A stretch of DNA of 64,000 nt from Parachryseolinea silvisoli (lineage in GTDB: Bacteria > Bacteroidota > Bacteroidia > Cytophagales > Cyclobacteriaceae). Shown here piece after piece: positions 3,980 to 52,391 of this stretch (position 1 is its first letter; each line of letters starts with the position of its first letter). Made by a program: the position numbers and the translations under genes. The stretch is taken from NCBI RefSeq assembly GCF_021190955.1, contig NZ_JAIOAO010000003.1, positions 496,001 to 560,000 of the forward strand, in the 5' to 3' direction. The notes under the pieces were generated by a model. That model was not told the DNA's origin. It saw nothing but the letters and a program-made list of their open reading frames with translations, and did not search any database.

Positions 3980-4360
3980 ATGCTGATTCTTTATGCCGAG
4001 GATGACATCGAGGACTTCGACTTTTTCTCCGAGATACTCCAGGAATTCAATCCCAAGGCGACGGCGTTGAATGCGGTTAATGGCCTCCAGGCCATCGAAA
4101 TCTTGCAGGAGCTGACAGTCCTCCCGAACGCGGTCTTTTTGGATGTTAATATGCCAACCATGGATGGTAAGGCCTGCCTTAAAGCATTGAAAGGGGACGA
4201 GACATTGAAAGCGATTCCTGTATATGTTTACTCAACCGGTGTAAGCCCCCGCGATATTGAGCAATGTATGCAGCTCGGCGCCGCGGCAGTCATTACGAAG
4301 CCGCTATCCCTGGACGAGGCCAGAACGTCGTTAGGGAAGGTTTTTGCTCAGCTTGATTAA
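3980..4360 (+). CDS. Stand-alone response regulator receiver domain (CheY-like)
   Basis: A single receiver domain of 126 residues without an output domain. It would accept a phosphoryl group from a histidine kinase and act by protein-protein contact. The acidic pair is at the E-D-D near residues 7-9, the phospho-acceptor is Asp55 in FLDVNMP, the switch Ser/Thr lies near 85-86 and the conserved Lys is at 107 in ITKP. All catalytic positions are present. No kinase gene is adjacent, so its partner is unknown. Lone receivers of this kind are common in Cytophagales. A TAnnTTTG element just upstream supports the chosen start. Confidence 0.88.
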   Translation: MLILYAEDDIEDFDFFSEILQEFNPKATALNAVNGLQAIEILQELTVLPNAVFLDVNMPTMDGKACLKALKGDETLKAIPVYVYSTGVSPRDIEQCMQLGAAAVITKPLSLDEARTSLGKVFAQLD

Positions 4361-30388: not shown

Positions 30389-30435
30389 AGGGGAAATTCA
30401 GTACTACCGAGTGTTTGTACGATTGAATTTCCCCT
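30389..30435 (+). terminator. Hairpin terminator after kdsA
   Basis: AGGGGAAATTCA pairs perfectly with TGAATTTCCCCT; an inner GTAC/GTAC pair may extend the stem. The downstream bases AACCTTTCC are only weakly T-rich. It separates the kds genes from the promoter of the sulfate genes. Confidence 0.65.
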
Positions 30436-30454
30436 AACCTTTCCAACTTTTTCC

Positions 30455-30484
30455 TTGTAGCCTTCCTCATTCGTTTTACCTTTG
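30455..30484 (+). promoter_or_regulatory. Promoter of the cys operon
   Basis: TTG (30455-30457), 19 bases, then TACCTTTG (30477-30484): one of the two best matches to the Bacteroidota -33/-7 promoter in the window. Transcription should begin near 30490, leaving about 120 bases before cysC, room for the leader described next. Confidence 0.7.
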
Positions 30485-30509
30485 TAATATCTACCAGTTC
30501 AGTGGTTTT

Positions 30510-30554
30510 ATGAAAAAGGTGCACCTCCATTATTGTTGTTGTTATTTGTGTTGA
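30510..30554 (+). CDS. Cysteine-rich leader peptide of the cys operon
   Basis: A 14-codon frame that begins about 20 bases after the predicted transcription start and reads MKKVHLHYCCCYLC and stop. Four of its last six codons are TGT (Cys), three of them in a row. The TGA stop is the beginning of a terminator-like hairpin, and the sulfate activation genes, which feed cysteine synthesis, follow. This is the arrangement expected of a ribosome-stalling attenuator that senses charged tRNA-Cys. A ribosome held at the Cys codons would cover the 5' arm of the hairpin and let transcription continue; fast release at the stop would let it form. The frame, codons and hairpin are seen; the regulation is inferred. 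No ribosome binding site is evident, as is usual in this phylum. Confidence 0.6.
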   Translation: MKKVHLHYCCCYLC

Positions 30555-30572
30555 GCGTCCTGCTCACTTTTT
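30552..30572 (+). terminator. Attenuator-like hairpin in the cys leader
   Basis: TGAGC pairs with GCTCA around the loop GTCCT and is followed by CTTTTTC. The stem is only five pairs, but its position at the stop codon of the Cys leader suggests attenuation. An alternative pairing of the Cys codons TGTTGTTGT region with ACCACCAAC (30591-30599) is possible at seven of nine positions. Confidence 0.45.
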
Positions 30573-30611
30573 CACTGCATTATTTGTCCACCACCAACTT
30601 TCTGCATCATC

Positions 30612-31214
30612 GTGAATCATATTTACCCCATACAAACGAAGGTCAGCCCTGTTCAGCGCGAAGCATTGCTGCAGCAGCGTCCGGTCGTCCTTTGGTTTAC
30701 CGGCCTCTCCGGGTCGGGCAAGTCCACGCTGGCCGTGCAGCTCGAAGCGCACCTGCACCAGCAGGGCTTCAAGACGTATTTGCTGGACGGTGACAACATC
30801 CGGAACGGGCTGAACAAAGACCTGTCGTTTACAGACGAAGGCCGTGTGGAAAACATCCGCCGCATTGGCGAAGTGTCGCGGTTGTTTGTGGACGCAGGCA
30901 TTATCGTACTGTCGGCTTTTATATCGCCGTTTGCCGCAGACCGCGAGCAGGTACGGTCGATCGTGGGAGCAGAGAATTTTATAGAAGTGTTTGTCGACGC
31001 GCCGCTGGAAGTATGCGAGCAGCGCGACGTGAAGGGGCTGTATAAAAAGGCACGTGCCGGCGAAGTCAAAAACTTTACCGGTATCGACTCACCGTATGAG
31101 CCGCCCGTGCAGCCTGATGTACATATTCCCACGCATTTGCAGAATGTGGAAGAATCAATGGAAATGTTGCTTTCGTTTATCCGCAGCCGGATCAGCCTGA
31201 AGGCGATTGTGTAG
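30612..31214 (+). CDS. cysC: Adenylylsulfate kinase
   Basis: APS kinase, 200 residues, which phosphorylates adenylylsulfate to PAPS in the cytoplasm. Walker [10 protein letters not shown] is near residues 32-40, followed by [13 protein letters not shown] near 60-72, RIGEVSRLF and FISPFAADR, all typical. The start is GTG at 30612; no ATG is available before the Walker motif. First enzyme gene of a cysC-cysD-cysN-cysQ unit on one strand with short gaps. A stand-alone kinase here, with cysN ending before any kinase domain, means the fused CysNC form is not used. Confidence 0.96.
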
Positions 31215-31248: not shown

Positions 31249-32157
31249 ATGAGTAATCCATATTACCTGAGTCACTTAAAAGAGCTGGAAGCCGAAGCGA
31301 TCTTTGTGATCCGTGAAGTTGTCGCCCAGTTTGAAAAACCTGCGCTGCTGTTTTCCGGCGGAAAGGATTCTATTGTCTTAGCCTATTTATCACGCAAAGC
31401 GTTTGCGCCGGCGCGTATTCCGTTTCCACTGGTGCACATCGATACCGGGCATAACTTTCCGGAGACCATGGAGTACCGCGACTGGCTGGTGAATGAGCTC
31501 GGTGTAAAGCTTATCGTAGGCTCCGTACAAGAAAGCATTGACAAAGGCCGCGCACGCGAAGAGACCGGTATCAATGCCAGTCGCAATGCACTGCAAACCG
31601 TCACACTGCTCGATACCATCGAGCAACATAAATTCGATGCGGCGATGGGCGGCGCGCGCCGGGACGAGGAGAAGGCCCGCGCCAAGGAGCGTTTCTTTTC
31701 ACACCGCGACGAATTCGGTCAGTGGGACCCGAAAAACCAGCGCCCCGAGCTATGGAACCTGTTTAATGGCCGCAAACATATCGGCGAGCACTTCCGCGTG
31801 TTCCCGATCTCGAACTGGACGGAGATGGATGTATGGCAATACATCTATAGCGAGAACATTCCGATCCCGACGCTTTACCTGTCGCATGAGCGCGAGGTGA
31901 TTGAGCGCGACGGCGCCTTGCTGTCTACGTCGCCGTGGCTGAAGCTGAAGCCGGGGGAGATTCCAATGAAGCGCATCGTACGTTTCCGTACCTGCGGCGA
32001 CATGCCGATCACCGGCGCGGTAGAATCATTTGCCGACACCGTCGAAAAAATTATTGAAGAGGTAGCCGCTTCGCGGAAGACGGAGCGGGGCACACGCGCG
32101 GACGACAAACGCTCGGAGACCGCCATGGAAGACCGGAAAAAATCAGGCTACTTCTAA
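31249..32157 (+). CDS. cysD: Sulfate adenylyltransferase subunit 2
   Basis: The catalytic subunit of ATP sulfurylase, 302 residues, which adenylates sulfate. The PP-loop FSGGKDS is near residues 35-41; MGGARRDEEKARAKER and the C-terminal KKSGYF are signatures of CysD. It works as a heterodimer with CysN, whose gene begins 18 bases downstream. Located 34 bases after cysC in the same transcription unit. Confidence 0.97.
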   Translation: MSNPYYLSHLKELEAEAIFVIREVVAQFEKPALLFSGGKDSIVLAYLSRKAFAPARIPFPLVHIDTGHNFPETMEYRDWLVNELGVKLIVGSVQESIDKGRAREETGINASRNALQTVTLLDTIEQHKFDAAMGGARRDEEKARAKERFFSHRDEFGQWDPKNQRPELWNLFNGRKHIGEHFRVFPISNWTEMDVWQYIYSENIPIPTLYLSHEREVIERDGALLSTSPWLKLKPGEIPMKRIVRFRTCGDMPITGAVESFADTVEKIIEEVAASRKTERGTRADDKRSETAMEDRKKSGYF

Positions 32158-32175
32158 ACCACACGAACCACCACC

Positions 32176-33432
32176 ATGAGCAATATCAATAATCAGCTTC
32201 TGCGGTTTACAACCGCCGGCAGTGTAGACGATGGCAAGAGTACCCTCATCGGTCGCTTGTTATACGACAGCAAGTCTATTTTTGAAGACCAGCTTGCCGC
32301 CGTGGAAGCCTCCAGCGCCAAGAAAGGATTCGACTATGTAGACTTGTCGCTGTTGACCGATGGTTTGAAGTCCGAGCGTGAGCAAGGCATCACCATCGAC
32401 GTGGCCTATCGCTACTTTGCCACCCCCAGACGTAAATTCATCATTGCCGACACACCGGGTCATATTCAATATACCCGCAACATGGTCACGGGGGCCTCTA
32501 CGGCAAACCTCGCATTGATCCTGATCGATGCGCGTAAAGGGCTGGTTGAGCAGACCTATCGTCACTCGTTTATCGCTTCGCTGCTGAAGATCCCACACAT
32601 CATTGTATGCGTGAATAAAATGGACCTGGTGGAATACGACCAGTCTGTATATGACCGTATCGTAGCCGAATACAAAGCCTTTTCGGCCAAGCTCGAGGTG
32701 TCCGACATACAATTTGTGCCCATCAGCGCGCTGGCAGGCGACAACGTCGTAAACCGCTCGGAGGCCATGCACTGGTACCAGGGTGCGACGCTGCTGCACA
32801 TGTTGGAATCTGTACATATCGAGAGCGATCATAACCATATCGACAGCCGCTTCCCCGTGCAATACGTGGTGCGTCCGCAGTCGAAAGAGCATCATGATTT
32901 TCGTGGCTATGCCGGCCGCGTAGCGGGTGGTATCTTCCGTCCCGGCGATGACGTAACGGTATTGCCGTCGGGCTTTCAATCCAAGGTAAAGGCGATCCAT
33001 TTGGGCAACGCGTTGCTTGAGGAGGCTTTTGCGCCGATGTCGGTTACGCTGACGCTGGAAGACGAGATCGACATCAGCCGTGGCGATATCATTGCCAAGC
33101 CCAACAACCAGCCACAAGCGGAACAAGACATCGACCTGATGTTATGCTGGATGAACCAGCGCCCTGTCAACCTGAATACCAAGCTTTATATACGCCACAC
33201 CTCGCGGGAAGTACGCGGTGTGCTGAAAGAGATTCAATACAAGCTGGACATCAATTCCCTGCACCGCGTGGAGAACGTGGAGCAATTGGGAATGAACGAT
33301 ATTGCCCGCGTGAAGATCCGCACGGCGCAGCCGCTGCTGATCGACAGCTATCGCAAAAACCGCATTACGGGCAGTGTGATCCTGGTAGACGAAAGTACCA
33401 ATGAGACCGTTGCGGCGGGTATGATCGTTTAA
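32176..33432 (+). CDS. cysN: Sulfate adenylyltransferase subunit 1 (GTPase)
   Basis: The GTPase subunit of ATP sulfurylase, 418 residues; GTP hydrolysis drives sulfate adenylation by CysD. G1 is GSVDDGKST near residues 15-23, G3 is DTPGHIQYTRN near 97-107, G4 is NKMD near 152-155, then two beta-barrel domains. The length corresponds to CysN alone, without the kinase domain found in CysNC. Its TAA stop shares one base with the ATG of cysQ, so the two are translationally coupled. Confidence 0.97.
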   Translation: MSNINNQLLRFTTAGSVDDGKSTLIGRLLYDSKSIFEDQLAAVEASSAKKGFDYVDLSLLTDGLKSEREQGITIDVAYRYFATPRRKFIIADTPGHIQYTRNMVTGASTANLALILIDARKGLVEQTYRHSFIASLLKIPHIIVCVNKMDLVEYDQSVYDRIVAEYKAFSAKLEVSDIQFVPISALAGDNVVNRSEAMHWYQGATLLHMLESVHIESDHNHIDSRFPVQYVVRPQSKEHHDFRGYAGRVAGGIFRPGDDVTVLPSGFQSKVKAIHLGNALLEEAFAPMSVTLTLEDEIDISRGDIIAKPNNQPQAEQDIDLMLCWMNQRPVNLNTKLYIRHTSREVRGVLKEIQYKLDINSLHRVENVEQLGMNDIARVKIRTAQPLLIDSYRKNRITGSVILVDESTNETVAAGMIV

Positions 33433-34193
33433 TGGATTTACAGGCATTATTACCCCATGCCCTTCGCGCCGCCCGCGAGGCCTGCCAGGTAATTCTGGAC
33501 GTATATACTTCCGGAGATTTTCAGGCAGAAGCCAAAGGCGACCAGTCGCCCGTGACCCGTGCCGACAAGTTAGCGCACGCAGTCATTGCGGAGCACCTGG
33601 CGCCCACCGGGCTTTTTGTGTTGAGCGAAGAAGGGAAGGAGATGCCCTATGATACGCGCAAAGACCTGCCATACTTCTGGATGGTCGACCCCCTGGATGG
33701 CACAAAAGAATTTTTAAAACGCAATGGCGAGTTTACGGTAAACATTGCCATTATCCACCAGCAACGCCCGGTGCTGGGCGTGGTGGCGGTGCCCGTTTCC
33801 GGTGATATATATTACGCCGTGGAGGGGCACGGCGCATTTCGCGAGCGTGCCGGGAAGGTGGAGCCCCTGACGCGTCGTACATCGGTTACATTGGATCAAC
33901 CGCGCTTGCGCGTAGTGGCCTCGCGTTCGTATATGAATGCCGAAACGAAAGACTTTGTGGACGCACTGGAGGCGCCTTCGTTATTGTCCAAAGGCAGTAG
34001 TTTGAAATTTTTGTTGTTGGCGGAGGGTGCCGCGGATGTGTACCCTCGTTATGCGCCCACGATGGAGTGGGACACCGCTGCTCCGCATGTGATTTTGCAC
34101 GAGACCGGGCTGCGCATCCTGCAGGCAGGGCAGGAGCAGGAGCTGATGTATAACAAGCCCTCTTTATTAAATCCTTCGTTTTTAGTGATATAG
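33432..34193 (+). CDS. cysQ: 3'(2'),5'-bisphosphate nucleotidase
   Basis: A 253-residue phosphatase of the inositol-monophosphatase fold that removes PAP, the by-product of PAPS use, and can also act on PAPS. The metal sites are EEG near residues 66-68, DPLDGTKEF near 88-96, and EWDTAAPH near 213-220. It is the last gene of the cys unit; a strong terminator follows. No PAPS reductase gene is present in the window, so the reduction step must be elsewhere. Confidence 0.95.
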   Translation: MDLQALLPHALRAAREACQVILDVYTSGDFQAEAKGDQSPVTRADKLAHAVIAEHLAPTGLFVLSEEGKEMPYDTRKDLPYFWMVDPLDGTKEFLKRNGEFTVNIAIIHQQRPVLGVVAVPVSGDIYYAVEGHGAFRERAGKVEPLTRRTSVTLDQPRLRVVASRSYMNAETKDFVDALEAPSLLSKGSSLKFLLLAEGAADVYPRYAPTMEWDTAAPHVILHETGLRILQAGQEQELMYNKPSLLNPSFLVI

Positions 34194-52320: not shown

Positions 52321-52391
52321 TAGACCGTACGGGAATCGAACCCGCGTTACCAGATGAAAATCTGGTGTCCTAACCTCCAGACGAACAGAGA
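52321..52391 (-). pseudogene. Decayed tRNA-Glu (TTC)
   Basis: D-arm (TCGTCTGGAGGTTAGGAC), anticodon TTC and T-arm GCGGGTTCGATTCCCGT identify tRNA-Glu. But the anticodon arm lacks one base (CCAGA-TTTTCA-TCTGG gives a six-base loop), and the acceptor 5' strand TCTCTGT pairs with ACGGTCT at only four of seven positions. I therefore call it a pseudo-tRNA. A further minus-strand tRNA-like T-arm (GCGATTCGAGTCCCGGAGA) lies at about 52404-52426. Confidence 0.65.

Follow-up and report, generated by a model that had tools for sequence, protein, structure and literature searches.

The DNA analysed here is a stretch of 64,000 nucleotides (the window) from a genome of 7.9 Mb, and its relevant part reads in the order kdsC, kdsA, a promoter, a 5' UTR of about 20 nt, a short leader frame, a hairpin over the stop codon of that frame, the run CTTTTTC and the genes cysC-cysD-cysN-cysQ. 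The four cys genes, whose function is sulfate activation, were named by NCBIfam profiles and lie on the plus strand: cysC, which encodes APS kinase and begins with GTG (30612..31214; NF003013, 4.2e-86), cysD (31249..32157; TIGR02039, 8.1e-127), cysN (32176..33432; TIGR02034, 3.4e-170) and cysQ (33432..34193; TIGR01331, 8e-75). Judged by CysC, the closest named relative is Dawidia soli (Chryseotaleaceae, Cytophagales, Bacteroidota) with 94% identity; over CysC+CysD the identity of D. soli to the window is 97%. A perfect 10-base inverted repeat, GGGGAAATTC / GAATTTCCCC, is found between kdsA and the cysC promoter (30390-30434); it is nearly identical in D. soli and is perhaps the terminator of kdsA. 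Elsewhere in the window a low-scoring tRNA match on the minus strand (52325-52388; 33.4 bits, gathering score 29) is perhaps a degenerate or unusual tRNA.

The promoter (30455..30484, plus strand) was recognised from its sequence and its conservation, and comprises TTG (30455-30457), a gap of 19 nt and TACCTTTG (30477-30484). An earlier interpretation made from this DNA alone (the sequence-only reading) had placed a promoter here, and its sequence is indeed present; it is assigned to the Bacteroidota type on its conservation and on the -33/-7 pattern that we take to be the consensus of this phylum, though a sigma-70 promoter scan of the region did not report it. Among six pairs of genomes that have the leader, identity over the 41 nt up to and including TTTG is 80-100%, compared to 53-92% for the 150 nt upstream of this promoter block. 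Only between the window and D. soli is identity higher upstream (91%) than in the promoter block (83%).

Comparison of the leader genomes also brought out a block in the 5' UTR, TCTACCAGTTCAGTGGTTTT (30490..30509, plus strand). Its core AGTGGTT is common to all six leader genomes and to two relatives in which promoter motif and block are present and the Cys frame is not, namely G006, a further genome of the genus, and Chryseolinea sp. H1M3-3, from another genus (loci L009 and L062, upstream of cysC). Because it is kept even in these two, the block may have a role of its own, in transcript start, translation start or protein binding. A single exact match to TCTANNNNTTNAGTGGTT exists in its own genome, the window site. 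AGTGGTT as a regulon-wide operator was rejected: the genome holds 8 matches to the pattern vs 15 for a reversed control, the leader site being the only exact one, and of the seven inexact matches five are inside an open frame, two are between genes and none is ahead of a recognised sulfur gene.

The cysteine-rich leader and its conservation

The leader frame (30510..30554, plus strand) reads MKKVHLHYCCCYLC* in 14 codons, ATG AAA AAG GTG CAC CTC CAT TAT TGT TGT TGT TAT TTG TGT followed by TGA, with Cys at codons 9, 10, 11 and 14. The Cys codons at four of the last six positions, three of them consecutive, to which the sequence-only reading had drawn attention, are thus read directly in the DNA. 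CysC is present in all seven genomes of the genus that were examined, and six of them, including the window's, carry a Cys-rich ATG frame at the same place and behind the same promoter, the exception being G006. Each of these six frames has at least four Cys codons in its last 13, starts 33-36 nt downstream of the start of TAnnTTTG and is separated from cysC by a spacer of 50-57 nt. Their length ranges from 13 codons in D. soli (MKKAHIHCCCYLC) through the 14 of the window to 38 and 39 in UBA5867 and G004 (ending HHCCACKQTCCW and HNCSACKHSCCGQ), with 38 codons each in Ohtaekwangia koreensis, the second named species with a leader, and in CABHOV010000046 (CABHOV; both ending RLHSCKLLCCW). The marks of a leader-peptide attenuator, namely a short frame that precedes biosynthesis genes, is enriched in the codons of the regulating amino acid and is conserved in relatives, are therefore found together, the last of them in six of the seven genus genomes. 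No Rfam family reached its gathering score at the leader site (best match at 30440-30660, E 2.9).

Could such a frame have arisen by chance within an untranslated leader? The frames are short, and three consecutive Cys within the last eight codons occur in 18 of 17,738 frames of the DNA examined, two of the 18 being these leaders. As a background, distinct ATG frames of 8-45 codons were counted on both strands of the window and of the loci retrieved by that point: 16 of 14,177 have at least four Cys among the final 13 codons, and the leaders described here account for six of the 16. This rate serves as a guide and not as a probability, because the loci are no random sample of genomes. When TAnnTTTG is required within 60 nt upstream, seven of 266 frames reach at least four Cys in the last 13, and six of the seven are these leaders. 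Against chance also speaks that the frame recurs in six genomes from three sub-lineages, with the same start and with the reading frame kept through a change of length, so that we regard a chance frame as the most improbable of all explanations considered. The Cys-rich leader ahead of cysCDNQ is real and is conserved within a small clade.

In a tree built from CysC+CysD of 14 genomes the six leader genomes form a weakly supported group (60/82), in which the window and D. soli stand next to the remaining four; G006 falls outside it. As the leader genomes group, though weakly, a single birth of the leader in this clade would fit best.

How the frames differ indicates what is kept in them. Between the window and D. 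soli six codons are changed, four of them synonymously, and one codon is lost in frame; all four Cys are retained, one by a change from TGT to TGC. Outside this pair changes are mostly non-synonymous: 15 vs 4 synonymous codon changes between UBA5867 and G004, with four of five tail Cys kept; 24 vs 3 between UBA5867 and O. koreensis, which share 38 codons and stop with 14 of 38 residues identical; 21 vs 7 in one further comparison; and two codons, both non-synonymous and neither in the tail, between O. koreensis and CABHOV. UBA5867 and O. koreensis both have at least four Cys in the last 13 codons, with three of five tail Cys in place and an extra Cys at codon 27 of O. koreensis. These retention counts are small and come from an informal comparison of the leaders. 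Most of the leader peptide is thus unconstrained, since the changes outside the window-D. soli pair are mostly non-synonymous and the Cys positions move.

The sequence-only reading had proposed to align relatives and to see whether Cys frame and hairpin are conserved while the flanks vary. The Cys frame is conserved, in six of seven genomes; the hairpin, discussed below, is suggestive at most; and in close pairs the whole frame is no better kept than its flanks, with identities of frame, spacer and upstream region of 90, 87 and 91% for window and D. soli, 81, 84 and 70% for UBA5867 and G004, and 97, 96 and 92% for O. koreensis and CABHOV. Between sub-lineages the frame is the better kept, with 74% for UBA5867 and O. 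koreensis, compared to 55% for the spacer and 63% upstream.

Retention of start, frame and Cys-rich end, with most residues free, is what would be expected of a codon sensor and not of a peptide whose structure is fixed. In all six leaders a His stands one or two codons ahead of a Cys in the tail, and four share CK..CC; these features would suit a peptide that is itself the product, be it a metal or redox peptide, small and rich in Cys, or a sensor acting through the nascent chain. With 13 to 39 codons, a Cys spacing particular to each lineage and most residues not conserved, such a product is very unlikely. We consider it quite probable that the leader senses charged tRNA-Cys, and with it cysteine supply, whatever the output. 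The sequence-only reading had found the layout to match what such a sensor needs, and this agrees with the retention of frame, position and Cys-rich end in six of seven genomes, where other residues and flanks mostly differ between sub-lineages.

Proposed control of cysCDNQ by the leader

The leader mRNA would start a few bases after TACCTTTG and would be translated at once. With ample Cys-tRNA the ribosome would reach the stop codon and leave, and expression of cysCDNQ would be reduced. When Cys-tRNA is scarce, the ribosome would stall on Cys codons within the last 13; stalled above all on the last Cys, it would cover the region of the stop codon together with the 5' end of the spacer, and expression of the operon would follow. 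That the leader is translated, to which the synonymous changes and the in-frame codon loss between the window and D. soli point only indirectly, that ribosomes stall on it and which sign the response to cysteine has is what we infer. Three outputs were weighed for the step that follows.

In the classical form of attenuation the hairpin over the stop codon and CTTTTTC would terminate transcription, unless a ribosome held up at the Cys codons covered the 5' arm and let the polymerase pass. Both elements named by the sequence-only reading exist in the window: the hairpin TGAGC-GTCCT-GCTCA (30552..30566, plus strand), whose 5' arm sits where the stalled ribosome would cover it, and the run CTTTTTC directly behind (30567..30573, plus strand). 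D. soli forms a longer stem, of six pairs, at the same place and in the same form. The window's hairpin has only five pairs and -6.0 kcal/mol (shuffle p 0.05 in a narrow and 0.35 in a wide sequence window), and the run is not conserved, CCTCTGC taking its place in D. soli. Three of the remaining four leaders form another short stem, which spans the stop codon or lies beside it (e.g. GTTGGT-AGCAA-ACCAAC in UBA5867), and CABHOV folds more weakly there. Across the six leaders (window, D. soli, UBA5867, G004, O. koreensis, CABHOV) the shuffle p of the hairpin is 0.050, 0.060, 0.090, 0.116, 0.096 and 0.438 in the narrow and 0.348, 0.048, 0.100, 0.272, 0.316 and 0.888 in the wide sequence window; as a conserved feature it stands marginally above chance at best and is suggestive at most.

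T-runs in the five other spacers reach no more than 2 to 4 nt, and five T in a row occur in the window only. The window's leader (153 nt) is no more stable when folded than shuffled versions of it (z +1.24; 179 of 200 shuffles equal or exceed its stability), four terminator-like sites in 2 kb are no significant excess over the 2.0 (sd 1.7) of shuffled sequence, and in a non-exhaustive look at the folds no competing antiterminator pairing stood out. The mark of a trp-type attenuator, a conserved intrinsic terminator after the leader, is thus confined here to a hairpin with five T in the window. CCTCTGC in D. soli and the short T-runs elsewhere rule out an intrinsic terminator as the conserved output of the clade; it could work in the window's own genome. 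The classical attenuator as a whole is unlikely. Of the attenuator put forward by the sequence-only reading the sensor half thus stands with the conserved leader, and the output assigned to it, termination at the short hairpin and T-run, fails for the clade. Attenuation through another output, by Rho or at the translation of cysC, is the likely form.

The spacer between leader and cysC (30555..30611, plus strand) is rich in C and poor in G, with 20 C and 6 G in 57 nt, and is a possible Rho loading region. C exceeds G in the spacers of all six leader genomes, by 14, 16, 12, 11, 9 and 7. In the 55 nt upstream of the genes of the window an excess of at least 14 is reached at one of 44 and of at least 7 at seven of 44; these genes were called by length, and cysC was displaced from the set by an antisense frame. 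Rho is encoded in the genome. A C-rich, G-poor region and a gene for Rho, which are necessary and not sufficient for a Rho-dependent attenuator, are thus both present. Rho-dependent termination in the spacer or in early cysC, relieved by the stalled ribosome, would be our first choice of output, held tentatively and at well under even confidence. It would need the stalled ribosome to mask the loading site itself, because a ribosome stalled upstream leaves the RNA downstream naked.

In translational attenuation, as it reportedly operates in mycobacteria, structure hides the start of the next gene and a stalled ribosome opens it. This is the mode of the best-known polycysteine leaders. Applied here, the start of cysC would be hidden by leader structure until stalling at the Cys codons frees it. 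In each of the six leader genomes cysC opens with GTG or TTG, and so weak a start would fit control at cysC. The leaders were folded, in models that are crude, without a ribosome and with a block of ribosome size placed at the first tail Cys, at the last Cys and at the stop codon. Moving the block from the stop codon to the last Cys changes the energy needed to open the cysC start by 0.0 (window), -2.0 (D. soli), 0.0 (UBA5867), -1.4 (G004), -0.9 (O. koreensis) and -1.1 kcal/mol (CABHOV). Values as low were obtained in the same order with 27, 1, 26, 4, 5 and 5 of 60 shuffled leaders, so the lowering stands out from shuffles in D. soli, G004, O. koreensis and CABHOV and is absent from the window and UBA5867. 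The four of six include a near-duplicate, the leaders of O. koreensis and CABHOV being near-copies. Relative to no ribosome the differences are of mixed sign (-0.4, -1.2, -0.1, -0.6, +1.3 and +0.1 in the same order), and a block at the first tail Cys has little effect on the cysC start. For translational control of cysC these models give a weak hint, in four of six leaders and not in the window's own; we consider it possible, at rather low probability. As a choice of output Rho-dependent termination ranks first, followed closely by translational control, with the intrinsic terminator in third place.

Distribution of the leader

No comparable Cys leader was found in the genus at cysH, two NIR/SIR-domain genes, cysE and cysS, and the leader would hence control one operon only. 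Two weaker cases were not counted. Ahead of cysH in G003 and G005 a GTG/TTG frame ending NCQECKQYC overlaps, in antisense, the beginning of a divergently transcribed gene and has no promoter motif. In G004 a TAnnTTTG motif is followed by a frame that starts with TTG and has three Cys, about 400 nt before cysS.

Outside the genus the leader was not found in the wider family, weaker leads apart, in sets of 30 loci, the 80 nearest named loci, 21 further loci and 60 upstream regions, whose genomes overlap. Four of the 80 named loci, searched over 260 nt before cysC, are leaders already counted, and of the rest only L115 and L128 have a frame with three Cys near its end. The frame at L115 lies inside coding sequence and was discarded. 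At L128 (Hydrogenothermaceae) MYCYFVCGFCES is encoded at -258 to -220 from the cysC match and may be chance. The 21 further loci, new among at least 30 from a search of 390 family genomes, gave two TTG frames, apparently inside the upstream gene. The 60 upstream regions, of which 59 span 4.8 kb and one spans 3.1 kb, contain 17 frames with at least three Cys near the end, 13 of them inside genes; the other four are the positive control L308, which was recovered, one at L292 and two at L296, one of which overlaps cysC. At L292 (G100) an intergenic frame ahead of cysC, on the reverse strand (4268-4324 of the reversed locus), would encode MDRIFCRICPCRNYFIRR and may likewise be chance.

The best further candidate for an independent Cys leader, as a lead only, is a frame at L296 (G151, C1:1494226-1499026, reverse strand; 4285-4347 of the reversed locus) that would encode MNEKCLYKYHESTTCCCLYA, 135 nt before cysC-cysD. 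It can form an 11-pair stem with the 3' arm after the stop codon and the Cys codons in the loop, and this fold is unremarkable beside those of shuffled sequence (z -1.17; its stability is matched by 29 of 200). The repeat AAGTATCATGAAT occurs at its start codon and within the frame. Seven other genomes of its genus, examined beside G151, do not have the MNEKCLYKYHESTTCCCLYA frame, and one of this type is to be expected now and then, given the frequency of three consecutive Cys noted above. On a reading with repeated origins, this unrelated CCC frame may be a second case. The full combination, tRNA-Cys control that arose in this clade, acts through Rho or cysC coupling with no intrinsic terminator and has repeated origins in the phylum, is possible and, taken as a whole, doubtful.

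Comparison with known systems

By its mode of sensing the leader belongs to a known kind. To our knowledge, control of cysteine supply is little described in Bacteroidota, and a literature search covering mainly non-subscription papers returned no Bacteroidota Cys leader among the matches listed. A comparative study of 2004 is said to have predicted attenuators in Bacteroidetes/Chlorobi. This simple leader, in which the start and the Cys-rich end are the main conserved parts, would offer a clean case for the switching of an operon by a stalled ribosome without a terminator, and for how sensors arise and vanish inside one genus.

Canestrari in 2020 reportedly found cysteine-responsive attenuation by polycysteine leaderless sORFs in mycobacteria, where translation of the next gene is controlled at several loci. 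The present leader is like these sORFs in having Cys codons in a short first frame with cysteine genes behind, and differs from them in that one operon is concerned and that the folds hint only weakly, in four of six leaders, at translational control. Bacteroidota mRNAs are mostly without Shine-Dalgarno sites, and for this reason the mycobacterial output may not carry over to this phylum.

Within Bacteroidota, the available part of a study on Flavobacterium psychrophilum indicates leader-peptide attenuation for amino-acid operons (PMC9723704), which shares with our case the phylum and the position of short peptides before amino-acid biosynthesis operons; pheA and hisG are among the conserved structured 5' elements that this portion of the paper names, and a cysteine operon is not. 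Short leader frames appear in an excerpt on B. thetaiotaomicron (PMC7366714). According to an extract of a 2010 paper, its authors knew of no leader-peptide system shown outside Proteobacteria and Actinobacteria before their own Firmicutes case, the atypical ermC leader being the exception they name (PMC2965389).

Among Cys-codon leaders, the uORFC-8-2 motif ahead of the tRNA synthetase gene cysS is, in the accessible section of its source, an attenuator of the terminator type (PMC8632094). Common to both are a conserved AUG frame, tandem Cys codons and the reading as a sensor of charged tRNA-Cys; unlike uORFC-8-2, with its intrinsic terminator and U-run before cysS, our leader has no conserved terminator and precedes a different gene. 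Mycobacterial experiments are cited, in a passage of PMC13236596, as translational attenuation of cysteine genes. Closest in form are the Cys leader peptides which, by the extract available, were predicted in 2005 for cys operons of Mycobacterium and Propionibacterium acnes and for cbs of Bifidobacterium longum (PMC1262725). The Mycobacterium-type leaders are described there as having no clear terminator, and Rho is weakly suggested by the authors as one possibility. The present leader differs from them in phylum and in the 5' UTR of about 20 nt that precedes the window's frame. As far as their description in that extract allows the likeness to be drawn, it resembles them in the runs of Cys codons near the stop of a short frame, in the cysteine genes behind and in having no conserved terminator hairpin.
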